Translations under genes and position numbers: made by a program | Source: Streptomyces aquilus | GTDB taxonomy: Bacteria; Actinomycetota; Actinomycetes; Streptomycetales; Streptomycetaceae | DNA length: 64,000 bases | Reading direction: 5' to 3' | Assembly (NCBI RefSeq): GCF_003955715.1 | Contig: NZ_CP034463.1 | Location: forward strand, 310,001-374,000 | Shown: in pieces, positions 2,113 to 60,453 of the stretch | How positions within the stretch are numbered: the stretch's first letter is position 1 | How the letters are laid out: the number at the start of each line of letters is the position of its first letter | The notes under the pieces: model-generated | The model's database searches: none | Told to the model about the DNA's origin: nothing | The model's input: the letters and a program-made list of their open reading frames with translations, nothing else

Positions 2113-2139
2113 GACCGGTGAGGACGCAACGGTGTGACA
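2113..2139 (-). promoter_or_regulatory. ECF41-type promoter for the cytochrome b gene
   Basis: On the minus strand TGTCACA (2139-2133) is followed after exactly 17 bases by GTC (2115-2113, context CGGTC). The start codon is about 65 bases downstream. The element sits in the short gap behind the dehydrogenase gene, so the cytochrome gene can be transcribed independently. Confidence 0.8.
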
Positions 2140-2155
2140 CTCGGGCGGTCGGGTG

Positions 2156-3094
2156 TCAGCGTGTGACGACGTTCTCCAGTTCCCTGCCCGCGGCGAACCG
2201 GGCCAGCTGCCGTCGCACGAGCGCTTCGAGACGGGGCCAGAAGTCGGGGGTGAAAGCGCCGACGTGCGGGGTTACCAGGACACCGGGCGCGGTCCAGAGC
2301 GGGTGGCCCGGCGGGAGCGGTTCGGGGTCGGTCACGTCCAGGGCGGCCCGCAGCCGTCCGCCGTCCACCTCCTTCAGCAGGGCGTCGGTGTCGACGACCG
2401 CGCCCCGGGACACGTTGACGAGCAGGGCGCCGTCCTTGACGCGGGACAGCAGCGCGGCATCGAAGAGCCCGCGGGTCGCCCCGGTCAACGGGGTGCACAG
2501 CACGATCACATCGGCGTCCGGGACAAGCCCGGGCAGCAGCGACACGGAGCGCACCGGCCCCTGGGGCGTGTCCCTGTCCGCGCGCCCGACGCGGGTGACG
2601 GCGCAGCCGAAGGGCGTCAGGAGCTCCTCCAGGGCGGAGCCGACGGCGCCGTGACCGACGATGAGCACGGACCGTTCGCGCAGGGTGGAGAAGGTCCGCG
2701 GATCCCAGTCCTCCCGGTCCTGGGCGCGGAGCGACTCCGGTATGCCGCGCAGGCTGGCGAGGATCAGTGTCAAGGCCAGCTCGGCCGTGTCGGCAGCCGC
2801 CACCCCCTTCGCGTTGCACAGGGTCACGTCACGCGGCAGCCGGTCCAGCACCGCCCGCAGTTCGTCGGTACCGGCGCTGAGCGCCTGCACCGCCCGCAGC
2901 CGGGTCATCCGGGCCAGCGGCCGGGCGATGACGCCGATGTCCTTGGTCAGTGGGGGTACGTAGAACTCGACTTCCGCCGGGTCCGTGGGAAAGGCCGAAC
3001 GGCCGTCCCAGCGGGCGTAGTCGAGGCCCGGGGGCAGATCGGCAAGGCGGCCGAACTGTGCGGGCAGCCATACCTGGGGGGATCGCACGGTCAT
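2156..3094 (-). CDS. D-2-hydroxyacid dehydrogenase family oxidoreductase
   Basis: The 312-residue protein has the NAD-binding motif VGHGAVGSALEELL and the catalytic arrangement of the family: Arg in NVSRGAVVDTDAL, an acidic residue in DVTDPEPLPPGHPLW and His in TPHVGAF. It should interconvert a 2-keto acid and a D-2-hydroxy acid with NAD(P)H; the substrate is not identifiable. ATG 3094 (MTVRSP) is preferred because a longer frame from 3181 would start upstream of the predicted transcript start. A GGAG lies 11 bases upstream. It has its own ECF41-type promoter, arranged back to back with that of the methyltransferase. Confidence 0.85.
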   Translation of the reverse strand: MTVRSPQVWLPAQFGRLADLPPGLDYARWDGRSAFPTDPAEVEFYVPPLTKDIGVIARPLARMTRLRAVQALSAGTDELRAVLDRLPRDVTLCNAKGVAAADTAELALTLILASLRGIPESLRAQDREDWDPRTFSTLRERSVLIVGHGAVGSALEELLTPFGCAVTRVGRADRDTPQGPVRSVSLLPGLVPDADVIVLCTPLTGATRGLFDAALLSRVKDGALLVNVSRGAVVDTDALLKEVDGGRLRAALDVTDPEPLPPGHPLWTAPGVLVTPHVGAFTPDFWPRLEALVRRQLARFAAGRELENVVTR

Positions 3095-3182
3095 GACGAC
3101 GAACTCCGCTCTCACGACGTTTTCCGGGGCTCTGGTCCGGTCTCGGAACGTCCCGAAAGGTCGCGGACGGAGCCGGACCATT

Positions 3183-3209
3183 GACTGCGCACCGTGCGCT
3201 CCTGTGACA
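3183..3209 (-). promoter_or_regulatory. ECF41-type promoter for the hydroxyacid dehydrogenase
   Basis: Minus-strand TGTCACA (3209-3203), 17 bases, GTC (3185-3183, context AGTCAAT). It is one half of a divergent pair; the plus-strand element begins 31 bases away. Confidence 0.8.
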
Positions 3210-3239
3210 ACGGTCCGCCCTGTGGTCGCCTGTCCTCGC

Positions 3240-3266
3240 TGTCACACGCTCTGCCCATACGTTGTC
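3240..3266 (+). promoter_or_regulatory. ECF41-type promoter for the methyltransferase
   Basis: TGTCACA at 3240-3246, 17 bases, GTC at 3264-3266 (context TTGTCATG). The -10 lies only about 10 bases before the likely start codon, so the transcript may have almost no leader. Confidence 0.78.
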
Positions 3267-3275
3267 ATGTCGGGC

Positions 3276-4040
3276 ATGCACACTATTCTCAGTGGACCGT
3301 CCGGTCTCCGACCCGAACACGACTCCTACGCGGTCACCGCGGAGTTCTACGACATCTTGCAGGCCGACGAGGACGAGGCGCGGGTCCGGCGGCTCTACTC
3401 ACGCCAGATCGCCGACGCCCGCACCGGTGTGCTGGACGTCGGGGCCGGTACCGGGCGGGTGACGATGCTGGCCCTCGCTGACTCCGGGGCCGACGTGCAC
3501 GCCGTCGAACCGGCCCGGGCCATGCGCACGTCGCTGCTGACCCGGCTCGCCGCCCTGTCCTGCGAGCAGCGGGACCGGGTCACCGTGCACCCGCACCCCC
3601 TGGACGAGACGGCGCTGGACGCGGTCGCGGATGTGGCCGTCTGCCACAACATGGTGGGCTGCCTGCCACCCGGGATACGCGAGAAGTTGTGGCCCGCGCT
3701 CGGCAGGGCCCTCACCCCCGGCGGCTCGCTGTTCGTGCAGTTGCCGCCGGCCCGGCTCCCGGCCCGCACCGTCGTGCGCCGGCTCGCGGACAAGCGGGTC
3801 GGCGAGCACATCTACGGCGGGCGCATGACGATGTCGGCCGCCGGTTACCGCATCCGGACCCGCGCCGACTACTGGGTCAGGGACGCCGAGGACGTGCTGC
3901 GGGAACACACCGAGACGTTCTGGATGTGGCCCGCGACGCGCGCCCGGCTGACCGACGAACTGGCCGCGCACGGGTTCGCCCCGCTTCCGGGGTACGAGGA
4001 GTCGGAGCTGCTGGCCGTGACACTGAACGTCCGCCGGTGA
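3276..4040 (+). CDS. Class I SAM-dependent methyltransferase
   Basis: The 254-residue product carries the SAM-binding motif I (VLDVGAGTGRVTM) after an AEFYDILQADEDEAR lead-in typical of actinobacterial small-molecule methyltransferases. Later come an acidic motif II region (DVHAVEPA) and a C-terminal REHTETFWMWP segment. ATG 3276 is chosen because it follows the promoter -10; ATG 3267 is an in-frame alternative almost touching it. The substrate is unknown. A decayed second copy with its own promoter lies at 57448-57903 on the minus strand, so the gene has been duplicated within this region. Confidence 0.82.
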   Translation: MHTILSGPSGLRPEHDSYAVTAEFYDILQADEDEARVRRLYSRQIADARTGVLDVGAGTGRVTMLALADSGADVHAVEPARAMRTSLLTRLAALSCEQRDRVTVHPHPLDETALDAVADVAVCHNMVGCLPPGIREKLWPALGRALTPGGSLFVQLPPARLPARTVVRRLADKRVGEHIYGGRMTMSAAGYRIRTRADYWVRDAEDVLREHTETFWMWPATRARLTDELAAHGFAPLPGYEESELLAVTLNVRR

Positions 4041-4571: not shown

Positions 4572-4598
4572 CGTCACAGGAACAGCCGGTTCCCGGTC
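4572..4598 (+). promoter_or_regulatory. ECF41-type promoter for ohr
   Basis: CGTCACA at 4572-4578, 17 bases, GTC at 4596-4598 (context CGGTCAT). It is a one-base variant of the -35 and sits 64 bases before the ohr start. Confidence 0.72.
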
Positions 4599-4661: not shown

Positions 4662-5159
4662 GTGACCGATCCGATCCAACTGCCCGACCTGTCCACCGGA
4701 AAGGACTTCACCGGGGACACGTTCTCGCCCCTCTACACGACGACGGTGACCGTCGACGGCGGTGCGGTCGCGCACGGGCGGGCCTCCGGCCGGGCCCGGT
4801 CGTCCGACGGCGCCCTGGACCTGGAGCTGCGGATGCCCGCGGAACTGGGCGGCCCCGGTACGGGGACCAATCCAGAGCAACTGTTCGCGGCCGGTTTCGC
4901 GGCCTGCTTCCACGGCGCGCTGAGCCTCCTGGCGCGGCAGGAAGCGCTCGATCCCGCCGCCGTCTCCGTCCTGGCGACCGTGGCGTTCGGACGTGATCCC
5001 GAGGACGGCGGCTATCTGCTCCACGTCGACCTGGTGGTGCGGTGGCCCGGCGTGCCGCGCGAGACGGCCACCCGCCTGATGAAGCGGGCCGACGCGCTGT
5101 GTCCGTACGCACGCATGGCCTGGCGGGGCACGCCGACCACCATCACCCTCGCCCCCTGA
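4662..5159 (+). CDS. ohr: Organic hydroperoxide resistance protein (Ohr/OsmC family)
   Basis: The 165-residue product has the two Ohr redox cysteines: Cys82 in FAACFHGAL (peroxidatic) and Cys147 in ALCPYARMA (resolving). It should reduce organic hydroperoxides with dihydrolipoyl thiols as electron donor. The start is GTG 4662 with GGAG 8 bases upstream. No OhrR-type repressor is adjacent; the ECF41-type promoter is the visible control. It converges with the ferredoxin gene 4 bases downstream. Confidence 0.88.
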   Translation: MTDPIQLPDLSTGKDFTGDTFSPLYTTTVTVDGGAVAHGRASGRARSSDGALDLELRMPAELGGPGTGTNPEQLFAAGFAACFHGALSLLARQEALDPAAVSVLATVAFGRDPEDGGYLLHVDLVVRWPGVPRETATRLMKRADALCPYARMAWRGTPTTITLAP

Positions 5160-5163: not shown

Positions 5164-5550
5164 TCAGAGCGGGAACCACGGGTCGACGTCGGCGGCCTCC
5201 TCGCCGCGGACGGCGAACCCGGCGATCTCCTTCTTGCGCACGTGCTGCGGCGGCAGTGCCGCGACCACGGGATGGTCTCCCTGCGCTGGGCGCGGTCCAC
5301 GCCGCTGTGCCGACCCCGCCTCGAAGAACTCCTCGTTGACGGCCCGGTAGTGCGCCCAGTGTCGCGGCAGCTCGTCCTCCGGGAAGATGGCCTCCACCGG
5401 GCACACGGGCTCGCACGCGTGGCAGTCCACGCATTCGTAGGGGTGGATGTACAGCGTGCGCACGCCCTCGTAGATGCAGTCCACAGGGCATTCGGCCAGG
5501 CACGCCCGGTCCTTGATGTCGACACAGGGCTGCGCGATGACGTAGGTCAC
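5164..5550 (-). CDS. fdxA: 7Fe-type ferredoxin, FdxA-like
   Basis: The 128-residue protein has eight cysteines in the ferredoxin pattern (9, 17, 21, 25, 40, 43, 46, 50), including CPVDCIYEG and CVDCHACEPVCPVEAI, typical of the 3Fe-4S/4Fe-4S FdxA class. GTG 5550 is the start, with GGAGAGGAG upstream and a leader of about 30 bases from the predicted transcript start. It is a likely electron carrier for the reductases of the same regulon. A truncated relative with a matching promoter is at 33009-33137. Confidence 0.87.
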   Translation of the reverse strand: MTYVIAQPCVDIKDRACLAECPVDCIYEGVRTLYIHPYECVDCHACEPVCPVEAIFPEDELPRHWAHYRAVNEEFFEAGSAQRRGPRPAQGDHPVVAALPPQHVRKKEIAGFAVRGEEAADVDPWFPL

Positions 5551-5586: not shown

Positions 5587-5613
5587 GACCGACGACACGG
5601 CAAAGGTGTGACA
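5587..5613 (-). promoter_or_regulatory. ECF41-type promoter for the ferredoxin
   Basis: Minus-strand TGTCACA (5613-5607), 17 bases, GTC (5589-5587, context CGGTCACTTGAG). It is back to back with the weaker element at 5648-5674. Confidence 0.8.
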
Positions 5614-5647: not shown

Positions 5648-5674
5648 TGTCACAAATCGTCGACCAGGCGGCTC
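5648..5674 (+). promoter_or_regulatory. Degenerate ECF41-type promoter for the cupin
   Basis: TGTCACA at 5648-5654 is perfect, but 17 bases on the sequence reads CTC, not GTC (context GGCTCACTTGA). The bases after it resemble the -10 context of the divergent ferredoxin promoter. It is placed correctly for the cupin gene, so it is probably a weak relative. Confidence 0.5.
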
Positions 5675-5733: not shown

Positions 5734-6228
5734 TTGTCAGAGGGCCGCTTGCCCCAGGCCGCTGTTCGCCCTCACGTTCCGAAGGGCATCATCACGCGTA
5801 CTTCAGCACGCGTCGCGGTCGCCGGTGCCTGCTTCATGGGGCTCTCGCTCGCCCCGACGACCGCCCAGGCCACCCCCGGCGGCCCCGGGGGCAGCGGCCG
5901 GGTCCTGGCCCAGCGGACCGTCGGCGACACCGACTACATCCTCCGCGAGATCACCATCCCGCCCGGCCAGGCGACCGGGTGGCACTACCACGACGGCACC
6001 TTGTACGCCTTCGTCAAGCAGGGCACGCTCAGCCACTTCGACGCCTCCTGCACCTTCGACGGTGTGTACGAGAAGGGCAGCTTCCTCAAGGAGCCGTCGG
6101 GCGCGGACCACGTGCACATCGGCGAGAACCCGGGGGCCACGGACATCGTCCTGGAGGTCCTCCACGTCCTGCCGCACGGCGCACCCTTCTCCCAGGAAGC
6201 GCCGTCCCCGGGCTGCGAACTGCCGTGA
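5734..6228 (+). CDS. Secreted cupin-domain protein
   Basis: The 164-residue product has an N-terminal basic and hydrophobic segment ending at TTAQA, a likely signal peptide, followed by a single cupin barrel with GWHYHDGTLYAF and a later ADHVHIGEN metal-binding histidine set. TTG 5734 is the only start codon between an upstream stop and the signal peptide, and no good ribosome site precedes it, so the start is uncertain; a frameshift near 5790 from an ATG at 5718 cannot be excluded. Function beyond small-ligand or metal binding outside the cytoplasm is unknown. Confidence 0.68.
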   Translation: MSEGRLPQAAVRPHVPKGIITRTSARVAVAGACFMGLSLAPTTAQATPGGPGGSGRVLAQRTVGDTDYILREITIPPGQATGWHYHDGTLYAFVKQGTLSHFDASCTFDGVYEKGSFLKEPSGADHVHIGENPGATDIVLEVLHVLPHGAPFSQEAPSPGCELP

Positions 6229-6248: not shown

Positions 6249-6275
6249 TGTCACAGCTCCCGCCGCTGCCCGGTC
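6249..6275 (+). promoter_or_regulatory. ECF41-type promoter for the short coiled-coil protein
   Basis: TGTCACA at 6249-6255, 17 bases, GTC at 6273-6275 (context CGGTCAATG). The leader to the start codon at 6432 is about 150 bases. Confidence 0.8.
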
Positions 6276-7050: not shown

Positions 7051-7248
7051 GTGCACGGAGCTGATCTCCTGCCGTACTTCGCGCAGTCCGGGGACACCGA
7101 GACCCGCGCCCGCGACGTCGCGTCGGCGCTGGGACGCGACATCGGCAGCGGCAGCATCAACGCCGTCCGCGGCTCGCTCGACCGCCTCGTGGGCACCTCG
7201 CGCGTCCAGCGGGCCGGCCGCGAACTGTACTGCGCCGTCACGCCGTGA
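7051..7248 (+). pseudogene. Winged-helix domain remnant (relative of the 61764 protein)
   Basis: The open frame from GTG 7051 encodes LLPYFAQSGDTETRARDVA then a GSINAVR..LDRLVGTSRV..AGR core. This is nearly the same as the C-terminal domain of the intact protein at 61764-62312. A TELI fragment matching that protein's TEQI lies just upstream in another frame, indicating a frameshift, and the linker region before it is scrambled. It overlaps the 3' end of the convergent ndh gene by 11 bases. It could still be translated as a short DNA-binding peptide, but decay is more likely. Confidence 0.6.
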
Positions 7249-8596
7249 GCCGGTCTCCGGGCTGTGCGGGCTCCTCTCCCCGGCGCGGTTCGCCGCGCGA
7301 GACGAATGCCTCCCGCGGGTGCTGCACCGACGCCAGCGACACGATGTCGCGGCCGTAGAGAAGGGCCGTGGCCCATACCGCGAACACACGCGTTTTGCGT
7401 TCCCAGCTCGGTATGGCCAGAACGTGGTAGCCACGGTGCATCAGCCAGGCCGGGAACCCCTTGATGACCAGGCCCCGGTACTGGAAGATGCCGCGGCCGA
7501 GCCCGAGTGTGGCCACCACACCGAGACTGCGGTGCACGTAGTCCTTGGCCGGACGGCCGCGCAGCGACGCCAGGATGTTCTTCGCCAGCCGTTTGCCCTG
7601 GCGGACGGCGTGCTGGGCGTTGGGCACGGTGTGCGCGCCCGGCCTCCCGGCCGCGAGATCGGGCACCGAGGCGTCGTCTCCCGCCGCCCAGACGTCGGGC
7701 ACCACCTCGGTGTCCGTGGTGACGCGCAGGTCCGCCCGTACGGTGAGCAGGCCCCGCTCGTCGACGGGCAGGTCACTGTGGTTGTGCACGATCGGGTTGG
7801 CGGCGTTGCCGGCCGTCCACACCAGCAGGCCCGAGTCGTACTCGGTGCCGTCCGACAGCCGCACCCGGCCGTCCTCGGCGGACACCAGCTGGGTGTTCAG
7901 GTGCACCCGCGCCCCCCGTTTCTCCAGTGAACGCACCACCCAGGCGCCCGGCCGGTCCGTGACCTCGGGCAGGATGCGGTCCCGTGCCTCGACCAGGTGG
8001 AAGGCCGGTTCGTCCGCGCCGATCTCCGGGTACTGCTTGAGCAACGCGGTTGCCAGGGCCAGCAGTTCACCAAATCCCTCCACTCCGGAGAATCCGCCAC
8101 CGACGACGGTGACGGTGAGCAGTTTGCTGCGTTCGGGCCCGCGCGGCAGACCGGCCGCACGGTCGAAGGAGGTGAGGAGGCGGTCGCGGATCGCCACCGC
8201 CTCCTCGACATGCTTGAGTCCGTACGCCTGATCGCTCAGGCCCGGGATCGGGAAGGTCCGGGTGACCGCCCCCGCCGTCACCACCAGGACGTCGTAGTGC
8301 AGGTCGAGGGACGGCCCGGACTCCGGACGGACCGTGACCGTGCGCGCGCTGTGCCGGATCTCCGTCACCGAGCCCGCCACCAGACGTGTGCGGCGCAAGT
8401 GACGGCGGAGCGAGACCGCCGCGTGACGGGCCTCCACCGAACCGGCCACGACCTCGGGCAGGAAGGGCTGGTACGTCATGTACGGGCGGGGGTCGACAAC
8501 GGTGACGCGCGCCTCGCCCGGCCGCAGCCTCTTCTCCAGACCCCACGCGGTGCAGAAGCCCGCGTACCCGCCGCCCACGATCAAGATCTCACGCAC
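7238..8596 (-). CDS. ndh: Type II NADH dehydrogenase (NDH-2)
   Basis: The 452-residue flavoprotein has an N-terminal FAD site (LIVGGGYAGFCTAWGLEKR), a second NADH-binding dinucleotide motif (VVGGGFSGVEGFGEL), WTAGN and the FAD-contacting VWAAGDDASVPD. The C-terminal part carries the amphipathic membrane-anchoring region of NDH-2. It oxidises NADH and reduces menaquinone without pumping protons. The start is GTG 8596 behind AGGA. With the cytochrome b copy it suggests respiratory re-routing within the regulon. Confidence 0.88.
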   Translation of the reverse strand: MREILIVGGGYAGFCTAWGLEKRLRPGEARVTVVDPRPYMTYQPFLPEVVAGSVEARHAAVSLRRHLRRTRLVAGSVTEIRHSARTVTVRPESGPSLDLHYDVLVVTAGAVTRTFPIPGLSDQAYGLKHVEEAVAIRDRLLTSFDRAAGLPRGPERSKLLTVTVVGGGFSGVEGFGELLALATALLKQYPEIGADEPAFHLVEARDRILPEVTDRPGAWVVRSLEKRGARVHLNTQLVSAEDGRVRLSDGTEYDSGLLVWTAGNAANPIVHNHSDLPVDERGLLTVRADLRVTTDTEVVPDVWAAGDDASVPDLAAGRPGAHTVPNAQHAVRQGKRLAKNILASLRGRPAKDYVHRSLGVVATLGLGRGIFQYRGLVIKGFPAWLMHRGYHVLAIPSWERKTRVFAVWATALLYGRDIVSLASVQHPREAFVSRGEPRRGEEPAQPGDRLTA

Positions 8597-8630: not shown

Positions 8631-8657
8631 GACCGGTCGACGACAGCCGGTGTGACA
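8631..8657 (-). promoter_or_regulatory. ECF41-type promoter for ndh
   Basis: Minus-strand TGTCACA (8657-8651), 17 bases, GTC (8633-8631, context CGGTCTAGAG). The leader to GTG 8596 is about 30 bases. Confidence 0.8.
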
Positions 8658-18264: not shown

Positions 18265-18291
18265 TGTCACAAATCCGGGGTCTGTCCGGTC
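18265..18291 (+). promoter_or_regulatory. ECF41-type promoter before the decayed flavoprotein
   Basis: TGTCACA at 18265-18271, 17 bases, GTC at 18289-18291 (context CGGTCGATC). The promoter is intact although its gene is broken. Confidence 0.78.
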
Positions 18292-19554: not shown

Positions 19555-19581
19555 TGTCACAGATACCGGGGCCGCCTGGTC
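19555..19581 (+). promoter_or_regulatory. ECF41-type promoter of the NmrA/AhpD-like operon
   Basis: TGTCACA at 19555-19561, 17 bases, GTC at 19579-19581 (context TGGTCAGG). The downstream gene pair is the classical ECF41 target type. Confidence 0.83.
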
Positions 19582-19670: not shown

Positions 19671-20414
19671 ATGAAAGTCGTAGTGATCGGCGGAACCGGA
19701 CTCATCGGTTCCAAGGTCGTCTCCAAGCTCAACGAACACGGTCACGAGGCGGTGGCAGCCTCCCCGAACACCGGAGTCAACACGGTCACCGGCGAAGGCC
19801 TGGCCGACGTCCTGAAGGGCGCCTCCGTCGTCGTCGACGTCTCCAACTCCCCCTCCTTCGACGACGACGCGGTGATGGAGTTCTTCCGCGCCTCCACCAC
19901 CAACCTGCTCGCCGCCGAGGCCGCCGCCGGCGTCACGCACCACGTGGCTCTGTCCGTCGTGGGCACCGACCGCCTCCAGCAGTCCGGCTACTTCCAGGCC
20001 AAGCAGGTACAGGAGGACATGATCCGGGACTCCGGAGTGCCGTTCTCGATCGTCCACGCCACGCAGTTCTTCGAGTTCGCCAAAACCCTCGCGGACTCGG
20101 CGACCAGCGGTGACACGGTGTCCGTCGCCCCCATCAAGATCCAGCCCATCTTCTCGGGCGACGTGGCCGCGGCCGTCGGCCGCACGGCGGTCGGCACTCC
20201 GGTCAACGGAATCGTCGAGGTCGCCGGCCCCGACACCTTCACCCTGGAGGACTTCATCCGCCAGGGCCTCGCGGCCCACAACGACCCCCGCACGGTCGTG
20301 ACGGACCCGAAGGGTCTCTACTGGGGCGCCGCCCTCAAGGAGTCCGACCTGCTGCCCGGCCCCGACGCACAGCTCGGCGAGACGCACTTCGCCGACTGGA
20401 GCAGCAAGCAGTAA
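19671..20414 (+). CDS. NmrA-like NAD(P)-binding protein (epimerase/oxidoreductase type)
   Basis: The 247-residue Rossmann protein starts MKVVVIGGTGLIGSKVV with a GxxGxxG motif and lacks the Tyr-x-x-x-Lys pair, placing it with atypical SDRs of the NmrA/SDR_a type. The DVSNSPSFDDDAV and VHATQFFEF segments are typical of actinobacterial members. AAGGGAAAG precedes the ATG. It forms an operon with the AhpD-like gene 85 bases downstream. Two decayed relatives, each behind an ECF41-type promoter, are at 35171-35227 and 44253-44790. A role in redox sensing or reduction of small molecules is likely. Confidence 0.86.
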   Translation: MKVVVIGGTGLIGSKVVSKLNEHGHEAVAASPNTGVNTVTGEGLADVLKGASVVVDVSNSPSFDDDAVMEFFRASTTNLLAAEAAAGVTHHVALSVVGTDRLQQSGYFQAKQVQEDMIRDSGVPFSIVHATQFFEFAKTLADSATSGDTVSVAPIKIQPIFSGDVAAAVGRTAVGTPVNGIVEVAGPDTFTLEDFIRQGLAAHNDPRTVVTDPKGLYWGAALKESDLLPGPDAQLGETHFADWSSKQ

Positions 20415-20499: not shown

Positions 20500-20970
20500 A
20501 TGGACGCGCGCATCAACTACTTCGGCAACGCTCTCGCGGGCAAGGTCATGAAGCACCTCAACTCGGCCGGGGCCGCTGTGCACTCGGCGCTGCCCGTCGC
20601 CACCCAGGAACTGGTGAAGATCCGGGCCAGCCAGATCAACGGCTGCGGGTTCTGCACCGACATGCACACCAAGGACGCCGTCGCCGCGGGTGAGGACCAG
20701 CAGCGGCTGCACCTGGTCGCCGCCTGGCGCGAGGCCACCGTCTTCACCGACGCCGAGCGCGCGGCCCTGGAGATCACCGAGCGGGGCACCCGCATCGCCG
20801 ACGCGGCGGGCGGGGTGTCGGACGAGGCCTGGGCCAACGCCGCCAAGCACTACGACGAGGACCAGCTCGCCGCGCTGATCTCGCTGATCGCGATCATCAA
20901 CGCCTACAACCGCATCAACGTCATCAACCAGCAGCCCGCCGGCGGCTACAAGCCGGGCATGTTCGGCTGA
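20500..20970 (+). CDS. AhpD-like carboxymuconolactone decarboxylase family protein
   Basis: The 156-residue protein has the CMD/AhpD thiol centre INGCGFCTDMHTK (Cys49, Cys52, His56), typical of alkylhydroperoxidase-like disulphide reductases. Together with the gene before it, it forms the oxidoreductase plus CMD pair that ECF41 factors are known to control. The start ATG 20500 has only a weak purine-rich site (CTCAGGATCC). It is expected to use its CxxC thiols in peroxide or thiol metabolism. Confidence 0.9.
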   Translation: MDARINYFGNALAGKVMKHLNSAGAAVHSALPVATQELVKIRASQINGCGFCTDMHTKDAVAAGEDQQRLHLVAAWREATVFTDAERAALEITERGTRIADAAGGVSDEAWANAAKHYDEDQLAALISLIAIINAYNRINVINQQPAGGYKPGMFG

Positions 20971-37139: not shown

Positions 37140-37181
37140 GCAGCGACCCCCACAGACAGAAGCTGCGGCATGTTTTCACAA

Positions 37182-37196: not shown

Positions 37197-37206
37197 CCAC
37201 TTAGTG

Positions 37207-38839: not shown

Positions 38840-38866
38840 CGTCACAGACGGCCGCCCCTCACGGTC
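38840..38866 (+). promoter_or_regulatory. ECF41-type promoter for the OsmC gene
   Basis: CGTCACA at 38840-38846, 17 bases, GTC at 38864-38866 (context CGGTCTGAG). The start codon is 56 bases downstream. Confidence 0.7.
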
Positions 38867-41183: not shown

Positions 41184-41210
41184 GACCGGGCCCGGAGCAG
41201 GTGTGTGACA
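41184..41210 (-). promoter_or_regulatory. ECF41-type promoter of the esterase/hydrolase operon
   Basis: Minus-strand TGTCACA (41210-41204), 17 bases, GTC (41186-41184, context CGGTCCCATGG). The promoter begins directly behind the DUF427 terminator. Confidence 0.8.
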
Positions 41211-42192: not shown

Positions 42193-42219
42193 TGTCACAG
42201 CGGGTGGCGGAGGCCGGTC
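42193..42219 (+). promoter_or_regulatory. ECF41-type promoter for the epoxide-hydrolase-like gene
   Basis: TGTCACA at 42193-42199, 17 bases, GTC at 42217-42219 (context CGGTCTGTG). The leader to 42464 would be about 240 bases. Confidence 0.7.
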
Positions 42220-42463: not shown

Positions 42464-43411
42464 ATGTCAACCCTGCCCCTGCTCGCCCCGCTGCGACGCG
42501 TCACGACCGACGTGCTCGAAGTCGCCTACTACGAAACGGGCTCCCCCGACGGTGACACCGTCGTCCTTCTCCACGGTTTCCCCTACGACATCCACAGTTA
42601 CGTGGATGTGGCCCCCCTGCTGGCCGAAGGCGGATTCCGTGTCATCGTCCCCCACCTGCGAGGGCACGGCCCCACCAGATTCCTGTCAGACTCTCTTCCC
42701 CGTTCCGGCCAGCAGGCTGCCCTGGGGGCCGACGTCATCGCGCTCCTGGACGCCCTCGGCATCGAGCGGGCCTACCTCGCCGGCTACGACTGGGGCGGTC
42801 GCGCGGCCACGGTCGCTGCGGCACTGTGGCCCGAACGAGTCCTCGGCCTGGTCTGCGTCAACGGCTACCTGATCCAGGACATCGGCGCCGCCATGAACCC
42901 CATCTCCCCCGAACTGGAAGCGGGTTTCTGGTACTTCTACTACTTCCTCACCGAGCGCGGCCGCACCGGACTGGCAGCCGATCCGCGGGGCGTCGCCAGG
43001 GTCATCTGGAAACGCAACTCCCCGGTGTGGGCCTTCGGCGAAGCCGAACTGGAGCGGGCCGCCGAGGCCTTCACCAATCCGGACTACGTCGATGTCGTCA
43101 TCCACTCCTACCGGCACCGGCTCGGCCTGGCACCGGGCGCGGACGCCTACGCCGATCTGGAAGCCCGGCTCGCCGGCCTTCCTCCGATCACCGTCCCCAC
43201 GGTCACCCTGGACGGCACCGCCGACGGCAACTTCCCGGCGACCGACGGGTCATCGACCGCTCACCACTTCATCGGCCCCCGCCTGCACCTTCAGGTCGCG
43301 GACGCCGGCCACAACATGCCGCAGGAACGCCCCGAGGCATTCGCCGCGGCGGTACGGGACGTACGGGCCCTGCGACGGGGACACCCCCGCCACGACTGCC
43401 TCACCGGCTGA
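42464..43411 (+). CDS. Alpha/beta hydrolase, epoxide-hydrolase/haloacetate-dehalogenase-like
   Basis: The 315-residue product has FLHGFPYDIHSYV-type oxyanion (VVLLHGFPYD), the nucleophile region AGYDWGGRAA, where aspartate replaces serine as in epoxide hydrolases and dehalogenases, and the histidine in DAGHNMPQERPE. GGAGG lies 7 bases before ATG 42464. The hydrolase cap has a Tyr pair (WYFYYFL) that may activate an epoxide. The substrate is unknown. Confidence 0.85.
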   Translation: MSTLPLLAPLRRVTTDVLEVAYYETGSPDGDTVVLLHGFPYDIHSYVDVAPLLAEGGFRVIVPHLRGHGPTRFLSDSLPRSGQQAALGADVIALLDALGIERAYLAGYDWGGRAATVAAALWPERVLGLVCVNGYLIQDIGAAMNPISPELEAGFWYFYYFLTERGRTGLAADPRGVARVIWKRNSPVWAFGEAELERAAEAFTNPDYVDVVIHSYRHRLGLAPGADAYADLEARLAGLPPITVPTVTLDGTADGNFPATDGSSTAHHFIGPRLHLQVADAGHNMPQERPEAFAAAVRDVRALRRGHPRHDCLTG

Positions 43412-43450: not shown

Positions 43451-43477
43451 CGTCACATCGGACCGTGTCCACCGGTC
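43451..43477 (+). promoter_or_regulatory. ECF41-type promoter for the cupin at 43532
   Basis: CGTCACA at 43451-43457, 17 bases, GTC at 43475-43477 (context CGGTCACATCG). The start codon is 54 bases downstream. Confidence 0.72.
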
Positions 43478-43531: not shown

Positions 43532-44026
43532 ATGTCGTACCCCTACCCGGAACAGAAGTACTTCGGAGACGACGGCGAGGTCAGCGCCGTGTTCCGGCCC
43601 GCCGACACCCCACCCGACCTCGGCGAGAGCGGGCCGGGCAAGGACGCCACCCACTATCTGGCCACCACCGCCACCACCCGCGGCGAGTTCGGGCTGTACC
43701 GGGTGGAGATGAGGCCGCGGGCCGGCGGCCCCAAGACGCACTTCCACAAGCGGATCTCGGAGTCGTTCTACATCCTGGACGGCACCGTGCGCATCTTCGA
43801 CGGTGTGCGCTGGGTGGATGCCCGCAAGGGCGACTTCGTGCACGTGCCGCAGGGCGGGCTGCACGCCTTCCGCAACGACTCCGACGCACCGGCGGACATG
43901 CTCCTGCTGTTCACACCGGGCGCGCCGCGCGAGGAGTACTTCGAGCAGGTGTCGACGCTGGCGCACGCCTCGGAGGAGGAGCGCTCCGCGTTCTTCGACC
44001 GGCACGACTCCTACTTCGTGGAGTAG
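43532..44026 (+). CDS. Cupin-domain protein
   Basis: The 164-residue single-cupin protein has motif 1 RPRAGGPKTHFHKRISESFYILDGTV and motif 2 GDFVHVPQGGLHAFRNDSD, both with intact metal histidines. It is similar to actinobacterial cupins annotated as quercetin-dioxygenase-like, though the exact activity is unknown. AGGAAAG precedes ATG 43532. It is the third cupin in the regulon and unlike the other two in sequence. Confidence 0.85.
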   Translation: MSYPYPEQKYFGDDGEVSAVFRPADTPPDLGESGPGKDATHYLATTATTRGEFGLYRVEMRPRAGGPKTHFHKRISESFYILDGTVRIFDGVRWVDARKGDFVHVPQGGLHAFRNDSDAPADMLLLFTPGAPREEYFEQVSTLAHASEEERSAFFDRHDSYFVE

Positions 44027-44126: not shown

Positions 44127-44153
44127 TGTCACAACAACACCTTTCGTCCCGTC
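44127..44153 (+). promoter_or_regulatory. ECF41-type promoter before the decayed NmrA-like gene
   Basis: TGTCACA at 44127-44133, 17 bases, GTC at 44151-44153 (context CCGTCAACAAGG). Confidence 0.75.
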
Positions 44154-44252: not shown

Positions 44253-44790
44253 ATGAAAGTCGTCGTTGCAGGCGCCACGGGACGGATCGGCTCGAGAACG
44301 GTCACCCGCCCGCAGGACCACGAGGCGCAGGTGGTGCCTCGCTCCCGCGCCCTGGGCGTCGACGCCGGTGACGCACACGCACCGCGCCGGGCGCTGCGCG
44401 GTGCGCAGATCCTGGTGGACGCCACCGACGCGCCCTCGCGACAGCAGGACGTCAGCACGGCGTTCTTCGCCGGCACCACCCGCGGCCTCCTGACGGCCGC
44501 CAGGACGGCGGGCGTCGAGCACCACGTGGCCCTGTCCGCCGTGGGCGCCGGCCGCGCCGGACAGGGCCACGGAACACCTCCGGGACAAGGCCGTACAGGA
44601 GACCTGGTCCGGCGCTCCGCACTGCCCTACTCCCTGGCGCGCACCACCCCGTTCTTCGAGTCGCCCTGGAGGCCGCCGGCCCCGGGGAGCGACCGTTCGA
44701 GGACCGCGCCGTCGACGTGCTCGCCGCCCAAGTCCACGTGACTCCCGTGATCGGCGACGCACGCACAGCGTGCTTCGGTGTCCTGATCGG
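44253..44790 (+). pseudogene. Decayed NmrA-like NAD(P)-binding gene
   Basis: From ATG 44253 the frame reads MKVVVAGATGRIGSRTV and keeps DVSTAFFAGTTRGLLTAARTAGVEHHVALSAVGAG. It then shifts: the alternative frame carries EHLRDKAVQE, the first frame returns for LPYSLARTTPFFES, and the rest (DRAVDVLAAQVHVTPVIGDARTA) is in another frame. It matches 19671-20414 throughout, with at least three frame changes. The N-terminal NAD motif survives, but the enzyme cannot be made. Confidence 0.82.
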
Positions 44791-52289: not shown

Positions 52290-53021
52290 GTGGACACATC
52301 TGTGATCGCAACCCGGCAGAGTCCGCAGTCGGTGATGGTGACCATCACTGCCGCGCCCGTCGAACTCAACGACGCGGCCTTCGTGTTCGGCCGCGTCCGG
52401 CCAGGACTGCTCAAGATCGCCAACCGGATCCTCCGAGATCCCGGCGAAGCCGAGGACGTCATCCAGGAGGCGTGGCTGCGCTGGCAGGGCACCGATCGCA
52501 CGGTCGTGGCCGACCCCGGTGCGTTGCTGCGCACGACGACCGTCCGGCTCGCCATCAACGTGCTGCAGTCGGCGCGCAGGCGCCGTGAGTCCAGTGCCAC
52601 CCCCTGGCTGCCGGAGTCCACGGACACCGGGATGACACCGGAGGCCCTGGCCGAACGCCGGGACTCGGTGGAGCATGCCGTTCTGCTGCTTCTGCAGACC
52701 CTCACCCCCAACCAGCGAGCCGCGTACGTGCTGCGCGAGGCGTTCGGCTACTCCTACGACCAGATCGGCGACCTGCTCCACCTGTCCGTGGGGAACGCAC
52801 GGCAGCAGGTCTCCCGCGCGCAGGACAGACTCAACAACCGGCGGCATCGGCAGCACGTGGACGCGGCCACCCATCGGCGGCTCGTTGAGGCGATCTTCAC
52901 CGCCGCCCGCACCGGAGACCTCGACCGCCTGGAGCACGTGCTGACCGGCCAGGACGCGCCGTACTCCGGCGAGGGGACGGCCGCACGCGACGGCGCGCCT
53001 TCCTACCGGGCCACCGCATGA
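52290..53021 (+). CDS. ECF41-group sigma factor with naturally truncated SnoaL-like domain
   Basis: The 243-residue protein has full sigma region 2 (LLKIANRILRDPGEAEDVIQEAWLRWQ) and region 4 (LTPNQRAAYVLREAFGYSYDQIGDLL, then NARQQVSRAQDRL). The SnoaL-like domain begins (RRLVEAIFTAARTGDLDRLEHVL) but ends after about 25 more residues, where the DGGG motif would be (YSGEG); the NPDKL end is absent. In studied ECF41 factors, partial removal of this domain gives a highly active sigma. GTG 52290 is chosen for AGAGGAG upstream. Its stop overlaps the MarR start (ATGA). Confidence 0.85.
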   Translation: MDTSVIATRQSPQSVMVTITAAPVELNDAAFVFGRVRPGLLKIANRILRDPGEAEDVIQEAWLRWQGTDRTVVADPGALLRTTTVRLAINVLQSARRRRESSATPWLPESTDTGMTPEALAERRDSVEHAVLLLLQTLTPNQRAAYVLREAFGYSYDQIGDLLHLSVGNARQQVSRAQDRLNNRRHRQHVDAATHRRLVEAIFTAARTGDLDRLEHVLTGQDAPYSGEGTAARDGAPSYRATA

Positions 53022-54547: not shown

Positions 54548-54574
54548 TGTCACAGAACTCCCCTTCGGGCGGTC
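54548..54574 (+). promoter_or_regulatory. ECF41-type promoter for the WhiB-like gene
   Basis: TGTCACA at 54548-54554, 17 bases, GTC at 54572-54574 (context CGGTCAGATG). The start codon is 42 bases downstream. Another TGTCACA at 54509 lacks the GTC. Confidence 0.8.
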
Positions 54575-54616: not shown

Positions 54617-54883
54617 ATGAGCTGGCACGAGAGAGCGGGCTGCCGGGAGGTCGACCCCGACCTGTTCTTCCCCATCGGCACCGCGGGTCTGGCGCTTGTC
54701 CAGATCGACGAGGCGAAGGCCGTGTGCGCCCGGTGCCCCGTGCGAGAGCGGTGTCTTCAGTGGGCGCTGGACGTCGGGCAGGTCGAGGGCATCTGGGGCG
54801 GCACGACGGAGAGCGAGCGCCGCGCGACCCGACGACGCTCAGCGCGTAAGGGCGCCGAGCGGATCGGCGTAAAGGCGTCCTGA
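54617..54883 (+). CDS. WhiB-like iron-sulphur regulator (Wbl)
   Basis: The 88-residue protein has the four Wbl cysteines at 9, 37, 40 and 46 (AVCARCPVRERCLQWAL) and the GIWGGTT turn, then a basic C-terminus. Wbl proteins bind a 4Fe-4S cluster, sense oxygen, NO or redox state, and contact the principal sigma factor. AAGGAGGCGCTGCC precedes ATG 54617. Placement behind an ECF41-type promoter makes it a likely second-tier regulator of the response. Confidence 0.93.
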   Translation: MSWHERAGCREVDPDLFFPIGTAGLALVQIDEAKAVCARCPVRERCLQWALDVGQVEGIWGGTTESERRATRRRSARKGAERIGVKAS

Positions 54884-56647: not shown

Positions 56648-57220
56648 TCATGCGGCTTCCGTGCGGGAGAGGCGGACGGCGGAGATGTCGAAGCTGAGCC
56701 TGACCTTGTCGCTGATGAGGGCGCCGGCGGTCTCGACGGGCGTGTTCCAGCCGAGCCCCCAGTCGGAGCGGCGCACGAGTGCGGTGCCGGAGAAGCCGAC
56801 ACGGTGGTCTCCGCTCTCGTCCTGCGTGGCCCCGTCGAAGGCGAGGTGGATGTGGAGAGGGAGTTCGACGTCCTTGATTCTGAGGTGGCCCGTCAGACGG
56901 AACTCGCCGTCTCCGCGGTCGGCAAGGCCTGCGGAGCGGAAGAGCATCACCGGATAGGTGGCGGCGTCGAGGAAGTCCGGGCCCGCGAGGTGGGTGTCCC
57001 GCTCAGGGCTGCTGGTGTCGATGCTGCCGGCCTGGACGCTCAAGTAGGCCTCGGAGCGGCTGGGTTGGTACCCGTCCAGCTTGACCAGCCCCTCGAACGC
57101 GCCGAACCGCCCGCGTACGTTCGCGATCATGGCGTGCCGGACGGAGAAGCCGATGGTGCTGTGTGCCGGGTCGATGGTGTAGACACCTGTCAGCGCTGGG
57201 TACGGGACGACGGTCGACAT
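56648..57220 (-). CDS. YceI-family lipid-binding protein
   Basis: The 190-residue lipocalin-like protein starts TGVYTIDPAHSTIGFSVRHAMIANVRGRFGAFEG and ends with GLGWNTPVETAGALISDKVRLSFDI, typical of the YceI family, which binds isoprenoid or polyisoprenoid lipids. No signal peptide is visible. AAGGACC precedes ATG 57220. An ECF41-type promoter drives this gene and probably the VioB-like gene behind it. Confidence 0.92.
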   Translation of the reverse strand: MSTVVPYPALTGVYTIDPAHSTIGFSVRHAMIANVRGRFGAFEGLVKLDGYQPSRSEAYLSVQAGSIDTSSPERDTHLAGPDFLDAATYPVMLFRSAGLADRGDGEFRLTGHLRIKDVELPLHIHLAFDGATQDESGDHRVGFSGTALVRRSDWGLGWNTPVETAGALISDKVRLSFDISAVRLSRTEAA

Positions 57221-57339: not shown

Positions 57340-57366
57340 GACAGGTGAGGGCCCGCGTGTGTGACA
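57340..57366 (-). promoter_or_regulatory. ECF41-type promoter of the YceI/VioB-like operon
   Basis: Minus-strand TGTCACA (57366-57360), 17 bases, GTC (57342-57340, context CTGTCTGTCC). The leader to ATG 57220 is about 110 bases. Confidence 0.77.
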
Positions 57367-57903: not shown

Positions 57904-57912
57904 GCCCCACTT

Positions 57913-57939
57913 GACAGGTCCGGCGCCTCATCTGTGACG
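57913..57939 (-). promoter_or_regulatory. ECF41-type promoter of the decayed methyltransferase
   Basis: Minus-strand CGTCACA (57939-57933), 17 bases, GTC (57915-57913, context CTGTCAAG). As at the intact copy, the -10 nearly touches the start codon region. Confidence 0.72.
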
Positions 57940-58162: not shown

Positions 58163-58897
58163 ATGCCTGCCATCCTCATCCACGGCGTTCCCGACACCCA
58201 CCGCGTGTGGAACGGCGTACGTCGGCACCTGACCCGCTCCGACGTCGAGGCCTGGGACCTGCCCGGATTCGGCACCCCCCGCCCCCCGGGTTTCGGATCC
58301 AGCAAGGAGGAGTACGTCGACTGGCTCGTCGAGCGCCTCGAGCGCGTCGGCGAGCCCGTGGACCTGGTCGGTCACGACTGGGGCTGCATCCTCACCGCCC
58401 GCGTCGCCTCCGTCCGCCCCGACCTGGTGCGCACCTGGGCCGGCGGCAACGGACCCATCAGTTCCCGCTACGTCTGGCACCCTCTGGCCGAGACCTGGCA
58501 GGACCCCGTCGCCGGCGAGCGGTTCATGGCCGAACTGGAGCCTGAGTCCTTCGCGAAGGACCTGGTGAACGGCTTCGACGCGCCCGCCGAACCGGTGGAG
58601 GAGATGGTCCGGCACGTCGACGGCACGATGAAGGACAGCATTCTGCGGCTGTACCGGTCCGCCGTGACGATGGGGACGGAGTGGGAACCGGCCCTGTCGA
58701 ACGTCACCGCACCCGCACTGGTGTTCTGGGGCGAGCGCGACCCGGCCTGTCAGATCGAGTTCGGCGACGAACTCGGCGCCGCCCTGCGCGCCACCCGCGT
58801 CCTCCATCTCGACTGCAACCACTGGACGGTGCTGGAGCGGCCCGCGGAGGTGGCCGCCGCCCTCGAGGCGCACTGGGCGCAGGGCACCGGACGCTAG
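58163..58897 (+). CDS. Alpha/beta hydrolase
   Basis: The 244-residue product starts MPAILIHGVPDTHRVWNGVRRHL and has the nucleophile region DLVGHDWGCIL, where aspartate stands in the serine position as in epoxide hydrolases and dehalogenases. ALVFWGERDPACQ and HLDCNHWTVLERP provide the rest of the active site. It has GAGGGA upstream, 11 bases before ATG 58163. No ECF41-type element is found on its strand. Confidence 0.82.
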   Translation: MPAILIHGVPDTHRVWNGVRRHLTRSDVEAWDLPGFGTPRPPGFGSSKEEYVDWLVERLERVGEPVDLVGHDWGCILTARVASVRPDLVRTWAGGNGPISSRYVWHPLAETWQDPVAGERFMAELEPESFAKDLVNGFDAPAEPVEEMVRHVDGTMKDSILRLYRSAVTMGTEWEPALSNVTAPALVFWGERDPACQIEFGDELGAALRATRVLHLDCNHWTVLERPAEVAAALEAHWAQGTGR

Positions 58898-59039
58898 CCC
58901 GTCGCGGACGGCGACGAGGGGCACGGGCCGACGGACCTCCTCGGCCACGGTCGTGGAAACCGGACGTCGTCCGCGCCCTCGTCGCGCTGCTCCGCCCCGC
59001 CCTCGCAGGCCCTCGCGCGGCCTCTTCGCCCCGGGCCGG

Positions 59040-59066
59040 TGTCACAACCCGCGGGTTCTCGCGGTC
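59040..59066 (+). promoter_or_regulatory. ECF41-type promoter of the ferredoxin reductase
   Basis: TGTCACA at 59040-59046, 17 bases, GTC at 59064-59066 (context CGGTCTCACC). The start codon is 55 bases downstream. Confidence 0.8.
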
Positions 59067-59121
59067 TCACCGCATGAGGACACACCAGTGTCCGGTGCGC
59101 GCGAACAGAGACGGAATCACC

Positions 59122-60354
59122 ATGTCGCGAGAGAACGGGTTCGTGATCGTCGGGGGCGGCCTCGCCGCGGGCAAGGCCGCCGAGGAACTCCGGCAACAGG
59201 GCTACGACGGTCCGCTCGTCCTCATCGGGGACGAGGCGGAGCGCCCCTACGTCCGACCGCCGCTGTCCAAGGGATACCTGCTCGGCAAGGAGGACCGCGA
59301 GTCCATTTTCGTGCATCCCGAAAACTGGTACCGAAAGCACGACGTCGACCTGCTGACGGGAACGCGCGTCACGGCCGTCGACCCACACTCCCGACAGGTC
59401 GAACTCACCGGCGGACGCCGGATGTCCTACACCAAGCTGCTCCTGGCGACCGGATCGTCGCCCCGCCGGCTGACGGTGCCCGGGGCGGACCTGGACAACG
59501 TGCTGTACCTGCGCCGTGTGGGGGACAGCGAGCGGCTCAAGGCTGCGTTCACCCCCGGGGCCCGGATCGTGATCGTCGGCGGCGGCTGGATCGGCCTGGA
59601 GACCGCCGCGGCGGCCCGGACCGCCGGGGCGCTGGTGACCGTTCTGGAGCACTCCGAGCTGCCGCTGCTGAAGGTGCTCGGCCGGGAGGCGGCCGAGGTC
59701 TTCGCCGACCTGCACCGGGACCACGGAGTCGTCCTGCGGCCCCACGCCGCCGTCGAGCGCGTCACCGGTGACGGCACCCGCGCCGACGGCGTGCAGCTCG
59801 CCGACGGAACCCGACTGCCCGCCGACGCCGTGGTGGTGGGCGTCGGCATCACCCCCAACGTCGAGCTCGCCGAAGCGGCGGGACTGGAGGTGCGCAACGG
59901 CATCGTCACCGACGAGCGTCTGCGCACCTCGGCCCGGGACGTACACGCCGCTGGGGACGTCGCCAACGCCTATCATCCCCGGCTCGGCCGGCATCTACGG
60001 GTGGAGCACTGGGCCAACGCCCTGCACCAGCCCCGCACGGCGGCACTGGCCATGCTCGGCAAGGAGGCCGCGTACAACCGGCTGCCGTACTTCTACACCG
60101 ACCAGTACGACCTCGGGATGGAGTACACGGGTTACACCGAGCCCGGTGGTTACGACCGCGTCGTCTTCCGCGGGAATCCGGCCGAGCGGCGGTTCATCGC
60201 CTTCTGGTTGTCCGGGGACCGGGTCCTGGCGGGCATGAGCGTGAACGTGTGGAAGGTCATCGACTCCGTCCGTGCCCTCGTCGAGTCCGGTGCCTCCGTG
60301 GCGGACGCGGCCCTGTCCGATCCCGAGACGCCCCTCGACAGCCTTCTGCCCTGA
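59122..60354 (+). CDS. FAD-dependent ferredoxin reductase
   Basis: The 410-residue protein has FVIVGGGLAAGKAAEELRQQGYDGPLVLIGDE (FAD), RPPLSKGYLLG, an NAD-binding IVIVGGGWIGLETAAAARTAGALVTVLE, and DVHAAGDVANAYHPRLGRHLRVEHWANALHQ followed by a reductase C-terminal domain. This is the layout of putidaredoxin-reductase-like or rubredoxin-reductase-like enzymes that pass NADH electrons to ferredoxins. It is a natural partner for the FdxA at 5164. ATG 59122 is preceded by AGACGGAATCACC. Confidence 0.9.
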   Translation: MSRENGFVIVGGGLAAGKAAEELRQQGYDGPLVLIGDEAERPYVRPPLSKGYLLGKEDRESIFVHPENWYRKHDVDLLTGTRVTAVDPHSRQVELTGGRRMSYTKLLLATGSSPRRLTVPGADLDNVLYLRRVGDSERLKAAFTPGARIVIVGGGWIGLETAAAARTAGALVTVLEHSELPLLKVLGREAAEVFADLHRDHGVVLRPHAAVERVTGDGTRADGVQLADGTRLPADAVVVGVGITPNVELAEAAGLEVRNGIVTDERLRTSARDVHAAGDVANAYHPRLGRHLRVEHWANALHQPRTAALAMLGKEAAYNRLPYFYTDQYDLGMEYTGYTEPGGYDRVVFRGNPAERRFIAFWLSGDRVLAGMSVNVWKVIDSVRALVESGASVADAALSDPETPLDSLLP

Positions 60355-60426
60355 CGACCGCCGCGAAGGTGACCGTGGCGCCCTCCGACGCAGGAGCGGG
60401 CGCCGCTGCGTACGGCCGGGAAACCG

Positions 60427-60453
60427 TGTCACACGATCTGTCCCTGTCCGGTC
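60427..60453 (+). promoter_or_regulatory. ECF41-type promoter of the ECF sigma factor at 60579
   Basis: TGTCACA at 60427-60433, 17 bases, GTC at 60451-60453 (context CGGTCAGCAC). It places a second sigma gene under the same element type. Confidence 0.8.

Follow-up and report, generated by a model that had tools for sequence, protein, structure and literature searches.

A recurrent cluster of putative ECF41-type promoter elements and sigma-factor paralogues in Streptomyces

The stretch studied here, 64 kb of the Streptomyces aquilus genome (contig NZ_CP034463.1, positions 310001-374000 of our genome G000; hereafter the window, whose coordinates are used below), carries many copies of the bipartite element TGTCACA-N17-GTC, together with five of the 13 matches to the SigX4 family of ECF41 sigma factors found in the genome. 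A sequence-only reading had counted 23 exact elements, six with one change in the -35 half and one with CTC in the -10 half, and a pattern search of both strands returned the same tally: 23 exact copies, five CGTCACA and one TGTCACG form (all with exact GTC) and one CTC form, giving 30 elements in a span of ~58 kb (2113..60453). Recounting by eye also reproduced CGGTC as the -10 in 20 of the 29 GTC-type elements, and the spacer is fixed at 17 in the window, with 23 matches for N17 and none for N14-N16 or N18-N20. When one mismatch was allowed, 34 matches were obtained (four of them off-consensus, at 27155, 31812, 37880 and 41204), against an average of 4.69 over 100 dinucleotide shuffles, none of which gave more than 10. 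Markov simulations of order 1 to 3 placed the expectation for exact matches at 0.10-0.13 (maximum 2; 60 runs each), close to the ~0.1 estimated beforehand; chance or base composition as the source of the elements was ruled out by the shuffles, the simulations and the fixed N17. The whole genome (a single contig of 10,393,987 bases, 10.39 Mb) holds 36 exact elements, 13 of them outside the window, and an equal density elsewhere, raised earlier as a counter-case, was not seen in the rest of the same genome, where exact elements are ~285-fold sparser.

With genes named from Pfam and NCBIfam profile matches, 26 of the 29 GTC elements end within 250 bp of a called same-strand start, in keeping with the upstream placement claimed before; the others precede a decayed flavoprotein frame (18265), or lie 392 bp (24347) or 302 bp (35130, followed by a second element at 35344) from a start. 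The element at 57913 precedes only a 33-codon frame. Across 295 genomes of the genus, that of S. aquilus included, TGTCACA-N15-CGGTC occurs at least once in 156, at least four times in 40 and at least eight times in 28, with a backward-pattern control giving at most two per strand. In genomes with listed positions the elements cluster, as in G118, where a 74-kb stretch contains 23 of the 32 exact elements (G and L numbers are our labels for genomes and loci). The element cluster was confirmed as real, recurrent and unusual.

Five sigma-type genes, here called types A to E, lie among the elements (Table 1). In protein A, sigma regions 2 and 4 are both matched in Pfam (E 2.4e-12 and 9.5e-13), the linker reads YVGPWLPEP and so contains the WLPEP motif, and the SnoaL-like C-terminal extension is covered by a full-length SigX4 match, PF12680 alone giving E 0.0012, below its curated cut-off. 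Its motifs DGGGI and NPVKL replace DGGGK and NPDKL, at places where 13 ECF41 references vary too. The family match of protein C stops at position 200 of 281, so that it has no SnoaL-like extension, and in protein E region 4 is gone from the alignment and Pfam gives a weak region-2 match only. A FastTree tree, from which fragments shorter than 150 aa were left out, separated A, B, C with F, and D with E, some nodes being weak. Type F (L050, L055, L060 and L067) comprises four proteins of 244-257 residues that have shed the WLPEP linker as well as the SnoaL domain, as though released from the two parts of the proposed lock. Mycobacterium tuberculosis SigJ (5XE7) is the best solved relative of A and D by sequence and of E by fold. 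The four sigma genes named previously (32037, 35459, 52290 and 60579) are all present but not equivalent, and a fifth, lacking region 4, lies at 36417-37139.

Placement was surveyed in 37 hand-chosen element-rich loci (23 islands, window included); the type-A loci L080, L081, L082, L086, L091, L113 and L129, with 0-3 elements, and L074, on the same contig as L061/L062, were left out of this census. An element lies within 400 bp upstream of 0/23 A genes, 19/23 B genes, 6/6 D1 genes and 6/10 D2 genes, and of none of the C (0/3), E (0/11) and F (0/4) genes. The element thus stands before most B and D genes and never before A, so that A would be the input and B and D would be feedback outputs. Taken together with the A-clade distribution described below, we consider it probable that a single ECF41 sigma clade has its regulon clustered in the window, and that the type A factor encoded at 32037 would direct RNA polymerase to the elements; we infer that the elements are promoters and A their reader.

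In the proposed circuit, A would read the TGTCACA-N17-GTC elements as promoters. Since no A gene carries an element, control over the quantity of A or over its activity would come from beyond the loop, through a signal acting on the SnoaL-like domain at its C terminus. A would in turn increase B, which is likely an amplifier or second reader and would provide positive feedback, and D, for which negative feedback is predicted. The D2 or E partner beside B, which has kept SnoaL and lost region 4 and WLPEP, would target the WLPEP linker of A or B in trans and so mirror the in-cis action proposed for the fused SnoaL domain. Predicted outputs are redox enzymes and spare-copy respiratory and central-carbon enzymes (QcrB, a succinate-type flavoprotein, FdxA, ferredoxin reductase, OsmC, the carboxymuconolactone-decarboxylase (CMD) family, cupins and hydrolases), likely as a response to damage of such redox and respiratory enzymes. 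With its -10 changed from CGTC to CGGTC, the circuit would stay separate from the cell's other ECF41 factors.

A gene of type D or E adjoins B in 22 of 23 loci (type E in 12, D2 in eight and D1 in two), L068 being the exception. Gene calling gave 21 of these pairs, in one of which a small frame intervenes, and tblastn gave the pair in L071. Across the ten D2 proteins, the helix of region 4 averages 0.33 identity versus 0.63 for SnoaL, and all ten hold DGGGK and NPDKL; in E, region 4 is deleted, SnoaL identity is 0.88 among 11 close relatives, and DSGGK (11/11) and NPDKL (9/11) are kept. E relatives of 236-240 residues occur in other Streptomyces, and a structure model of E (pLDDT 73.7) had SigJ 5XE7 as its top match, along with NTF2-like folds, at a whole-chain TM of only 0.44. 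In 6/23 loci, B ends at 174-243 residues without the SnoaL motifs, for which sequencing errors are possible. Separate SnoaL genes were also seen outside these islands: in five of seven neighbourhoods from Microbacteriaceae and kin (L094, L099, L101-L104 and L108), a SnoaL gene of 86-123 residues lies directly behind a full ECF41 gene, L094 having one of 74 residues three genes on and L099 none noted. In the Agromyces loci L101, L102 and L108 the SnoaL gene shares 14 bp with the ECF41 gene, and an element stands 51-53 bp ahead of the latter. These six stand-alone SnoaL proteins cluster with types D and E (support 0.93), apart from the SnoaL domain carried by the sigma factor encoded nearby.

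According to excerpts of PMC7730460 and PMC8999054 (published work is drawn on in excerpt throughout), the ECF41 SnoaL domain holds the sigma factor via NPDKL and the WLPEP linker, and removal of the distal part of the domain raised activity ~20- and 120-fold in two species (PMC3426412). Because the fused domain is described as holding the sigma factor and its truncation raises activity, a SnoaL protein that may act in trans on ECF41 would be a natural reading. A more tentative proposal is that ECF41 evolved an anti-sigma factor of its own: a SnoaL paralogue that gave up promoter recognition with region 4 and WLPEP may have become a protein of its own, encoded next to the regulon and partly within it (in Agromyces as the overlapping SnoaL gene), and may regulate an intact sigma factor in trans, C and the B proteins of 6/23 loci having shed SnoaL, and this split together with the -10 switch may have allowed one operon to grow into an island of 20-30 promoters. 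Alternatively, D2 and E could be decaying sigma genes without function, as the erosion or deletion of region 4 and the lack of elements before E would allow, and the 0.88 SnoaL identity is weak evidence of constraint because the 11 E proteins are close relatives. We regard such decay as somewhat unlikely, given the SnoaL conservation and intact motifs of D2, the motifs of E and its position beside B in 12 loci (11 called, one by tblastn), and the grouping of stand-alone SnoaL genes from other families with D/E. The broader view that every D protein is a dead sigma factor was withdrawn, as region 4 is as conserved as SnoaL in 47 non-redundant relatives, and is retained for D2 and E alone.

Several observations bear on which sigma factor reads the elements. 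Genome tallies of elements and of A were made by hand from scan tables, A being the query of the genus-wide sigma scan, with eight candidates scored per genome and A-positive genomes defined by a best E of at most 1e-123 (~66% identity), a threshold set after a gap in the scores had been seen. So defined, A occurs in 49/295 genomes, in 34 of the 40 with at least four elements versus 15 of the 255 others (odds ratio 91), and alongside 0-20 elements per genome in a graded series. In A-clade loci, 124 of 144 exact elements have G immediately ahead of GTC and none has C; at 53-60% identity to A this base is G in 18/21, and at 49% or less it is C in 13/16, although four similar Stenotrophomonas loci supply eight of these 13 cases and many of the A loci are closely related, so that the counts are not independent. 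Since G precedes GTC already at 53-60% identity, the -10 switch probably arose with the wider clade, ahead of the large islands. Compared with the ECF41 promoter TGTCACA-n16-CGTC, the ECF41-type character assigned to the putative promoter element earlier applies to its TGTCACA -35 and its spacing; the -10 is mostly CGGTC, and the canonical CGTC is not usual here. If A reads the elements, the single-operon (COE) regularity of ECF41 factors does not hold, with 30 elements in 58 kb, but that regularity is not part of the protein definition.

In a two-sigma regulon, B, or A and B equally, would read the elements and A would be a mere relative. B also scores over the SigX4 cut-off, usually carries an element itself and keeps a YIGPWLPEP linker in 20/23 proteins. 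The tracking of element number by A, as found in a scan with A as query, and the small A loci L086 and L091, which have an element and no B found in 21 kb, make this unlikely. The assignment of the elements to A nevertheless faces points that weigh against it, as does the circuit built upon it. As B passes the same cut-off, it could be the main reader, and a region-2 residue that would explain the -10 switch was sought and none found at the thresholds used. Among genomes with eight candidates scored each, G079 (78% complete) and G105 have at least eight elements each, and G004, G045, G212 and G269 have 4-5, with no A at threshold. Conversely, 15 genomes have A with few or no elements (G230 has none), so A alone does not make an island. 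The E, C and F genes carry no element, L068 and L113 have a B-like gene with no D or E gene found, and D1 keeps region 4 (0.73; 47 non-redundant of the 120 relatives listed, from 1392 that passed the E-value), which limits the partner role to D2, E and the stand-alone forms. Exact NPDKL is present in only 3/13 ECF41 references and the stand-alone SnoaL forms do not have it exactly, so the lock-and-key argument is weak. Finally, genes in the window were called with a simple codon-usage script.

In a protein scan with A, 24 of the best 80 of 322 loci carry A at 66% identity or more; in 15 of these, stretches of 17-21 kb have 7-10 exact elements each, L085 has six in 14 kb, and the other eight have 0-3, two of them lying on contigs of 5-6 kb, while loci in the same 80 whose A relative is at most 60% identical have 0-3. 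The Actinacidiphila loci L083 and L088 are among the element-rich ones. In the 37 rich loci, 10/351 elements lie inside a called gene versus 72% of random positions, and 301/351 lie within 250 bp upstream of a start versus 11%. The target-family and spacer analyses keep six elements that were double-counted in 1-kb overlaps (357 in total, 351 distinct; 304 and 301 of them, respectively, near a start). Elements precede NmrA and SdhA-like genes in 21 of the 23 islands each, ECF41 genes in 20 and cupins in 19, followed by small unnamed genes (16), hydrolases (15), OsmC (14), AMP-binding enzymes (12) and FdxA (12). The spacers of orthologous elements vary, with mean pair identities of 0.47-0.77 in 12 families and a lowest value of 0.13, and the core is kept; 187 of 347 elements, ten in-gene elements having been left out of this base table, are still distinct after copies with at most four differences are dropped. 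Neighbouring gene pairs were kept in 10/27 cases between G000 and G141 and in 23/31 between G000 and its near relative G084. Because orthologous spacers differ and neighbour order is only partly kept, the cluster is kept as a set and not merely inherited as a block. Recent copying of one repeat was rejected, since the spacers differ.

Clustering might instead be a by-product, either of a catabolic island that spread with its promoters or of recent promoter duplication, most elements being unused. Some genes are indeed decayed (18337-19515 and 57809-57910), and close relatives whose A is 94-97% identical carry similar element-rich loci; set against the distinct elements, the divergent spacers with a conserved core and the shuffled gene order, this explanation is very improbable. 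Scarcely credible is an element serving as the operator of an ordinary transcription factor, for which the large LuxR-type ATPase regulators at 15340 and 49043, recurrent in island loci (21 members), would be candidates, as the element is bipartite, asymmetric, spaced by 17 in the window and oriented to its gene, its -35 and nearly its -10 match the ECF41 promoters of Bacillus licheniformis and Rhodobacter sphaeroides mapped by rapid amplification of cDNA ends (RACE), and the Sinorhizobium meliloti RpoE9 promoter is likewise TGTCACA-N17-GTC. The clustered, expanded ECF41-type regulon proposed by the sequence-only reading is supported by its recurrence, shuffled order, varied spacers and A-clade tracking, and is not unique to this genome.

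Smaller arrangements were seen in 20 chosen neighbourhoods. One element precedes a CMD-ECF41 pair in L086 and L117, and one precedes NmrA beside the sigma gene in L091; 4-6 elements, near forms counted, were found in Leifsonia (L094), Agromyces (L101, L102, L108), Microbacterium (L104) and Nocardia (L096), and full islands in Streptomyces. Within window 31500-37500, 57% of the sequence is matched at 82% identity by a 1.5-Mb plasmid from Streptomyces sp. NBC_00841, and parts of the island can, on this match, sit on megaplasmids.

Table 1 Sigma-type genes, putative target genes and elements of the window (window coordinates).
Feature	Coordinates	Strand	Remark
Type A, ECF41 sigma factor, 298 aa	32037..32933	+	SigX4 353 bits, over cut-off
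Type B, ECF41 sigma factor, 334 aa	35459..36463	+	over SigX4 cut-off
Type E, sigma-like, region 4 deleted, SnoaL domain kept	36417..37139	-	convergent with B, overlaps B end
Type C, ECF41 sigma factor without SnoaL domain, ends near DGGGK position	52290..53021	+	
Type D, ECF41-like, WLPEP linker lost, DGGGK and NPDKL kept	60579..61445	+	
Putative target, cytochrome bc1 b subunit (QcrB), extra copy	418..2049	-	
Putative target, 2-hydroxyacid dehydrogenase	2156..3094	-	
Putative target, methyltransferase	3267..4040	+	
Putative target, OsmC-like protein	4662..5159	+	
Putative target, ferredoxin FdxA	5164..5550	-	
Putative target, cupin (under Pfam cut-off)	5836..6228	+	
Putative target, pyridine nucleotide-disulphide oxidoreductase, NADH-dehydrogenase-like	7238..8596	-	
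Putative target, NmrA/NAD-binding protein	19671..20414	+	family with element in 21/23 islands
Carboxymuconolactone decarboxylase family protein	20500..20970	+	downstream of 19671-20414
Putative target, SpoIIE/PP2C phosphatase	22998..23954	-	
Putative target, GNAT acetyltransferase	27181..27804	-	
Putative target, AMP-binding enzyme	28041..29141	+	then aldehyde dehydrogenase 29141-30535
Putative target, cupin	31281..31748	-	family with element in 19/23 islands
Putative target, succinate/fumarate-type flavoprotein	33390..35087	+	family with element in 21/23 islands
Putative target, OsmC-like protein	38923..39327	+	
Putative target, alpha/beta hydrolase 3	40187..41137	-	
Putative target, alpha/beta hydrolase	42464..43411	+	
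Putative target, cupin	43532..44026	+	
Putative target, NAD-binding protein, shortened	44253..44741	+	
Putative target, WhiB-like protein	54617..54883	+	
Putative target, YceI-like protein	56648..57220	-	then ferritin-like 55466-56527
Putative target, ferredoxin reductase	59122..60354	+	
Exact element (CGGTC)	2113..2139	-	63 bp before 418-2049
Exact element	3183..3209	-	88 bp before 2156-3094
Exact element	3240..3266	+	abuts called start of 3267-4040
CGTCACA element (CGGTC)	4572..4598	+	63 bp before 4662-5159
Exact element (CGGTC)	5587..5613	-	36 bp before 5164-5550
Element with CTC in -10	5648..5674	+	before 5836-6228
Exact element (CGGTC)	6249..6275	+	156 bp before 6432-6674
Exact element (CGGTC)	8631..8657	-	34 bp before 7238-8596
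Exact element (CGGTC)	18265..18291	+	before decayed flavoprotein frame 18337-19515
Exact element	19555..19581	+	89 bp before 19671-20414
Exact element	24347..24373	-	392 bp before called start of 22998-23954
TGTCACG element	24441..24467	+	82 bp before 24550-24807
Exact element (CGGTC)	24888..24914	+	42 bp before 24957-25193
CGTCACA element (CGGTC)	27856..27882	-	51 bp before 27181-27804
Exact element (CGGTC)	27923..27949	+	91 bp before 28041-29141
Exact element (CGGTC)	31792..31818	-	43 bp before 31281-31748
Exact element (CGGTC)	33214..33240	-	76 bp before 42-codon frame 33009-33137
Exact element	33295..33321	+	68 bp before 33390-35087
Exact element (CGGTC), first of two before sigma gene B	35130..35156	+	302 bp before 35459
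Exact element (CGGTC)	35344..35370	+	88 bp before sigma gene B 35459-36463
CGTCACA element (CGGTC)	38840..38866	+	56 bp before 38923-39327
Exact element (CGGTC)	41184..41210	-	46 bp before 40187-41137
Exact element (CGGTC)	42193..42219	+	244 bp before 42464-43411
CGTCACA element (CGGTC)	43451..43477	+	54 bp before 43532-44026
Exact element	44127..44153	+	99 bp before 44253-44741
Exact element (CGGTC)	54548..54574	+	42 bp before 54617-54883
Exact element	57340..57366	-	119 bp before 56648-57220
CGTCACA element	57913..57939	-	before 33-codon frame, likely gene remnant
Exact element (CGGTC)	59040..59066	+	55 bp before 59122-60354
Exact element (CGGTC)	60427..60453	+	125 bp before sigma-like gene D 60579-61445

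Part of the cluster consists of spare copies, since QcrB (58-60% identity), ketol-acid reductoisomerase (91%) and AceE (59% and 71%) have further copies in the genome; the reductoisomerase and AceE genes lie within the cluster and not directly behind an element. The reductoisomerase at 26059-27063, which shares 91% identity with its other copy at 7.29 Mb, is a likely spare. Another QcrB copy, with an internal TAG stop, adjoins an ECF41 relative (9051549-9052412) outside the island, at genome positions 9049993-9052412. The decayed frame at 18337-19515 is a second succinate/fumarate-type flavoprotein and still has an intact element in front of it. The two LuxR-type ATPase regulators span 15340-18120 and 49043-51853, and relatives of theirs lie near A-like sigma genes in L096 and L113. 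At 61764-62312 the window encodes a 182-residue protein without a Pfam family, whose cluster has 18 members in 12 islands, none behind an element.

One ECF41 clade with ~20-30 gathered elements in about a tenth of the genomes of the genus, and intermediate sizes in other actinobacteria, offers a graded series in which to study the growth of a sigma regulon and the reasons for the clustering of its genes, as well as a large reporter set for finding the ECF41 signal, the inducing condition being given as not known in the founding ECF41 study. ECF41 factors are said to have no anti-sigma factor (PMC3426412, PMC6180224), and D2, E and the stand-alone SnoaL proteins would be concrete candidate trans-acting regulators for a group thought to have none. 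A search of the titles and abstract openings of open-licence literature returned no ECF41 regulon island and no separate SnoaL partner of ECF41, and the earlier statement that no ECF41 regulon of this size and clustering had been described stood within that scope. The usual single-operon role, also assumed there, was borne out for three published factors, those of B. licheniformis and R. sphaeroides (PMC3426412) and S. meliloti RpoE9 (PMC6180224); Azospirillum RpoE10, said to regulate lateral flagella (PMC12826043), is a possible exception and may already depart from that role.

Among characterized systems, the SigJ and SCO3450 iModulons of Streptomyces coelicolor resemble the island in that each sigma factor is reported to control a single-locus cluster of catabolic genes, at SCO1265-1288 and SCO3437-3465, respectively (PMC11538686). 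SCO3450 is called SigR2, a SigR target (PMC5882110, PMC3902916), and the string TGTCA is absent from the main text of PMC11538686; identity of the island with the SigJ (SCO1276) or SCO3450 loci was not established. A type-A protein labelled S. violaceoruber is 98% identical to that of G118, with no locus number found. M. tuberculosis SigJ (5XE7) is a full-length sigma factor, whereas E lacks region 4. In the SigG1-RsfG pair of Streptomyces tsukubaensis (ECF56), RsfG is reported to lack a conserved Pfam domain, whereas the candidate partner here is a sigma-derived SnoaL protein. Ecf41Bli, Ecf41Rsp and RpoE9 share with the present system sigma regions 2 and 4, the WLPEP linker, the SnoaL-like extension with DGGG, the TGTCACA -35 and the spacing; they differ in serving one operon with a CGTC -10, where the window has ~30 elements in 58 kb, mostly CGGTC, and several clustered paralogues.

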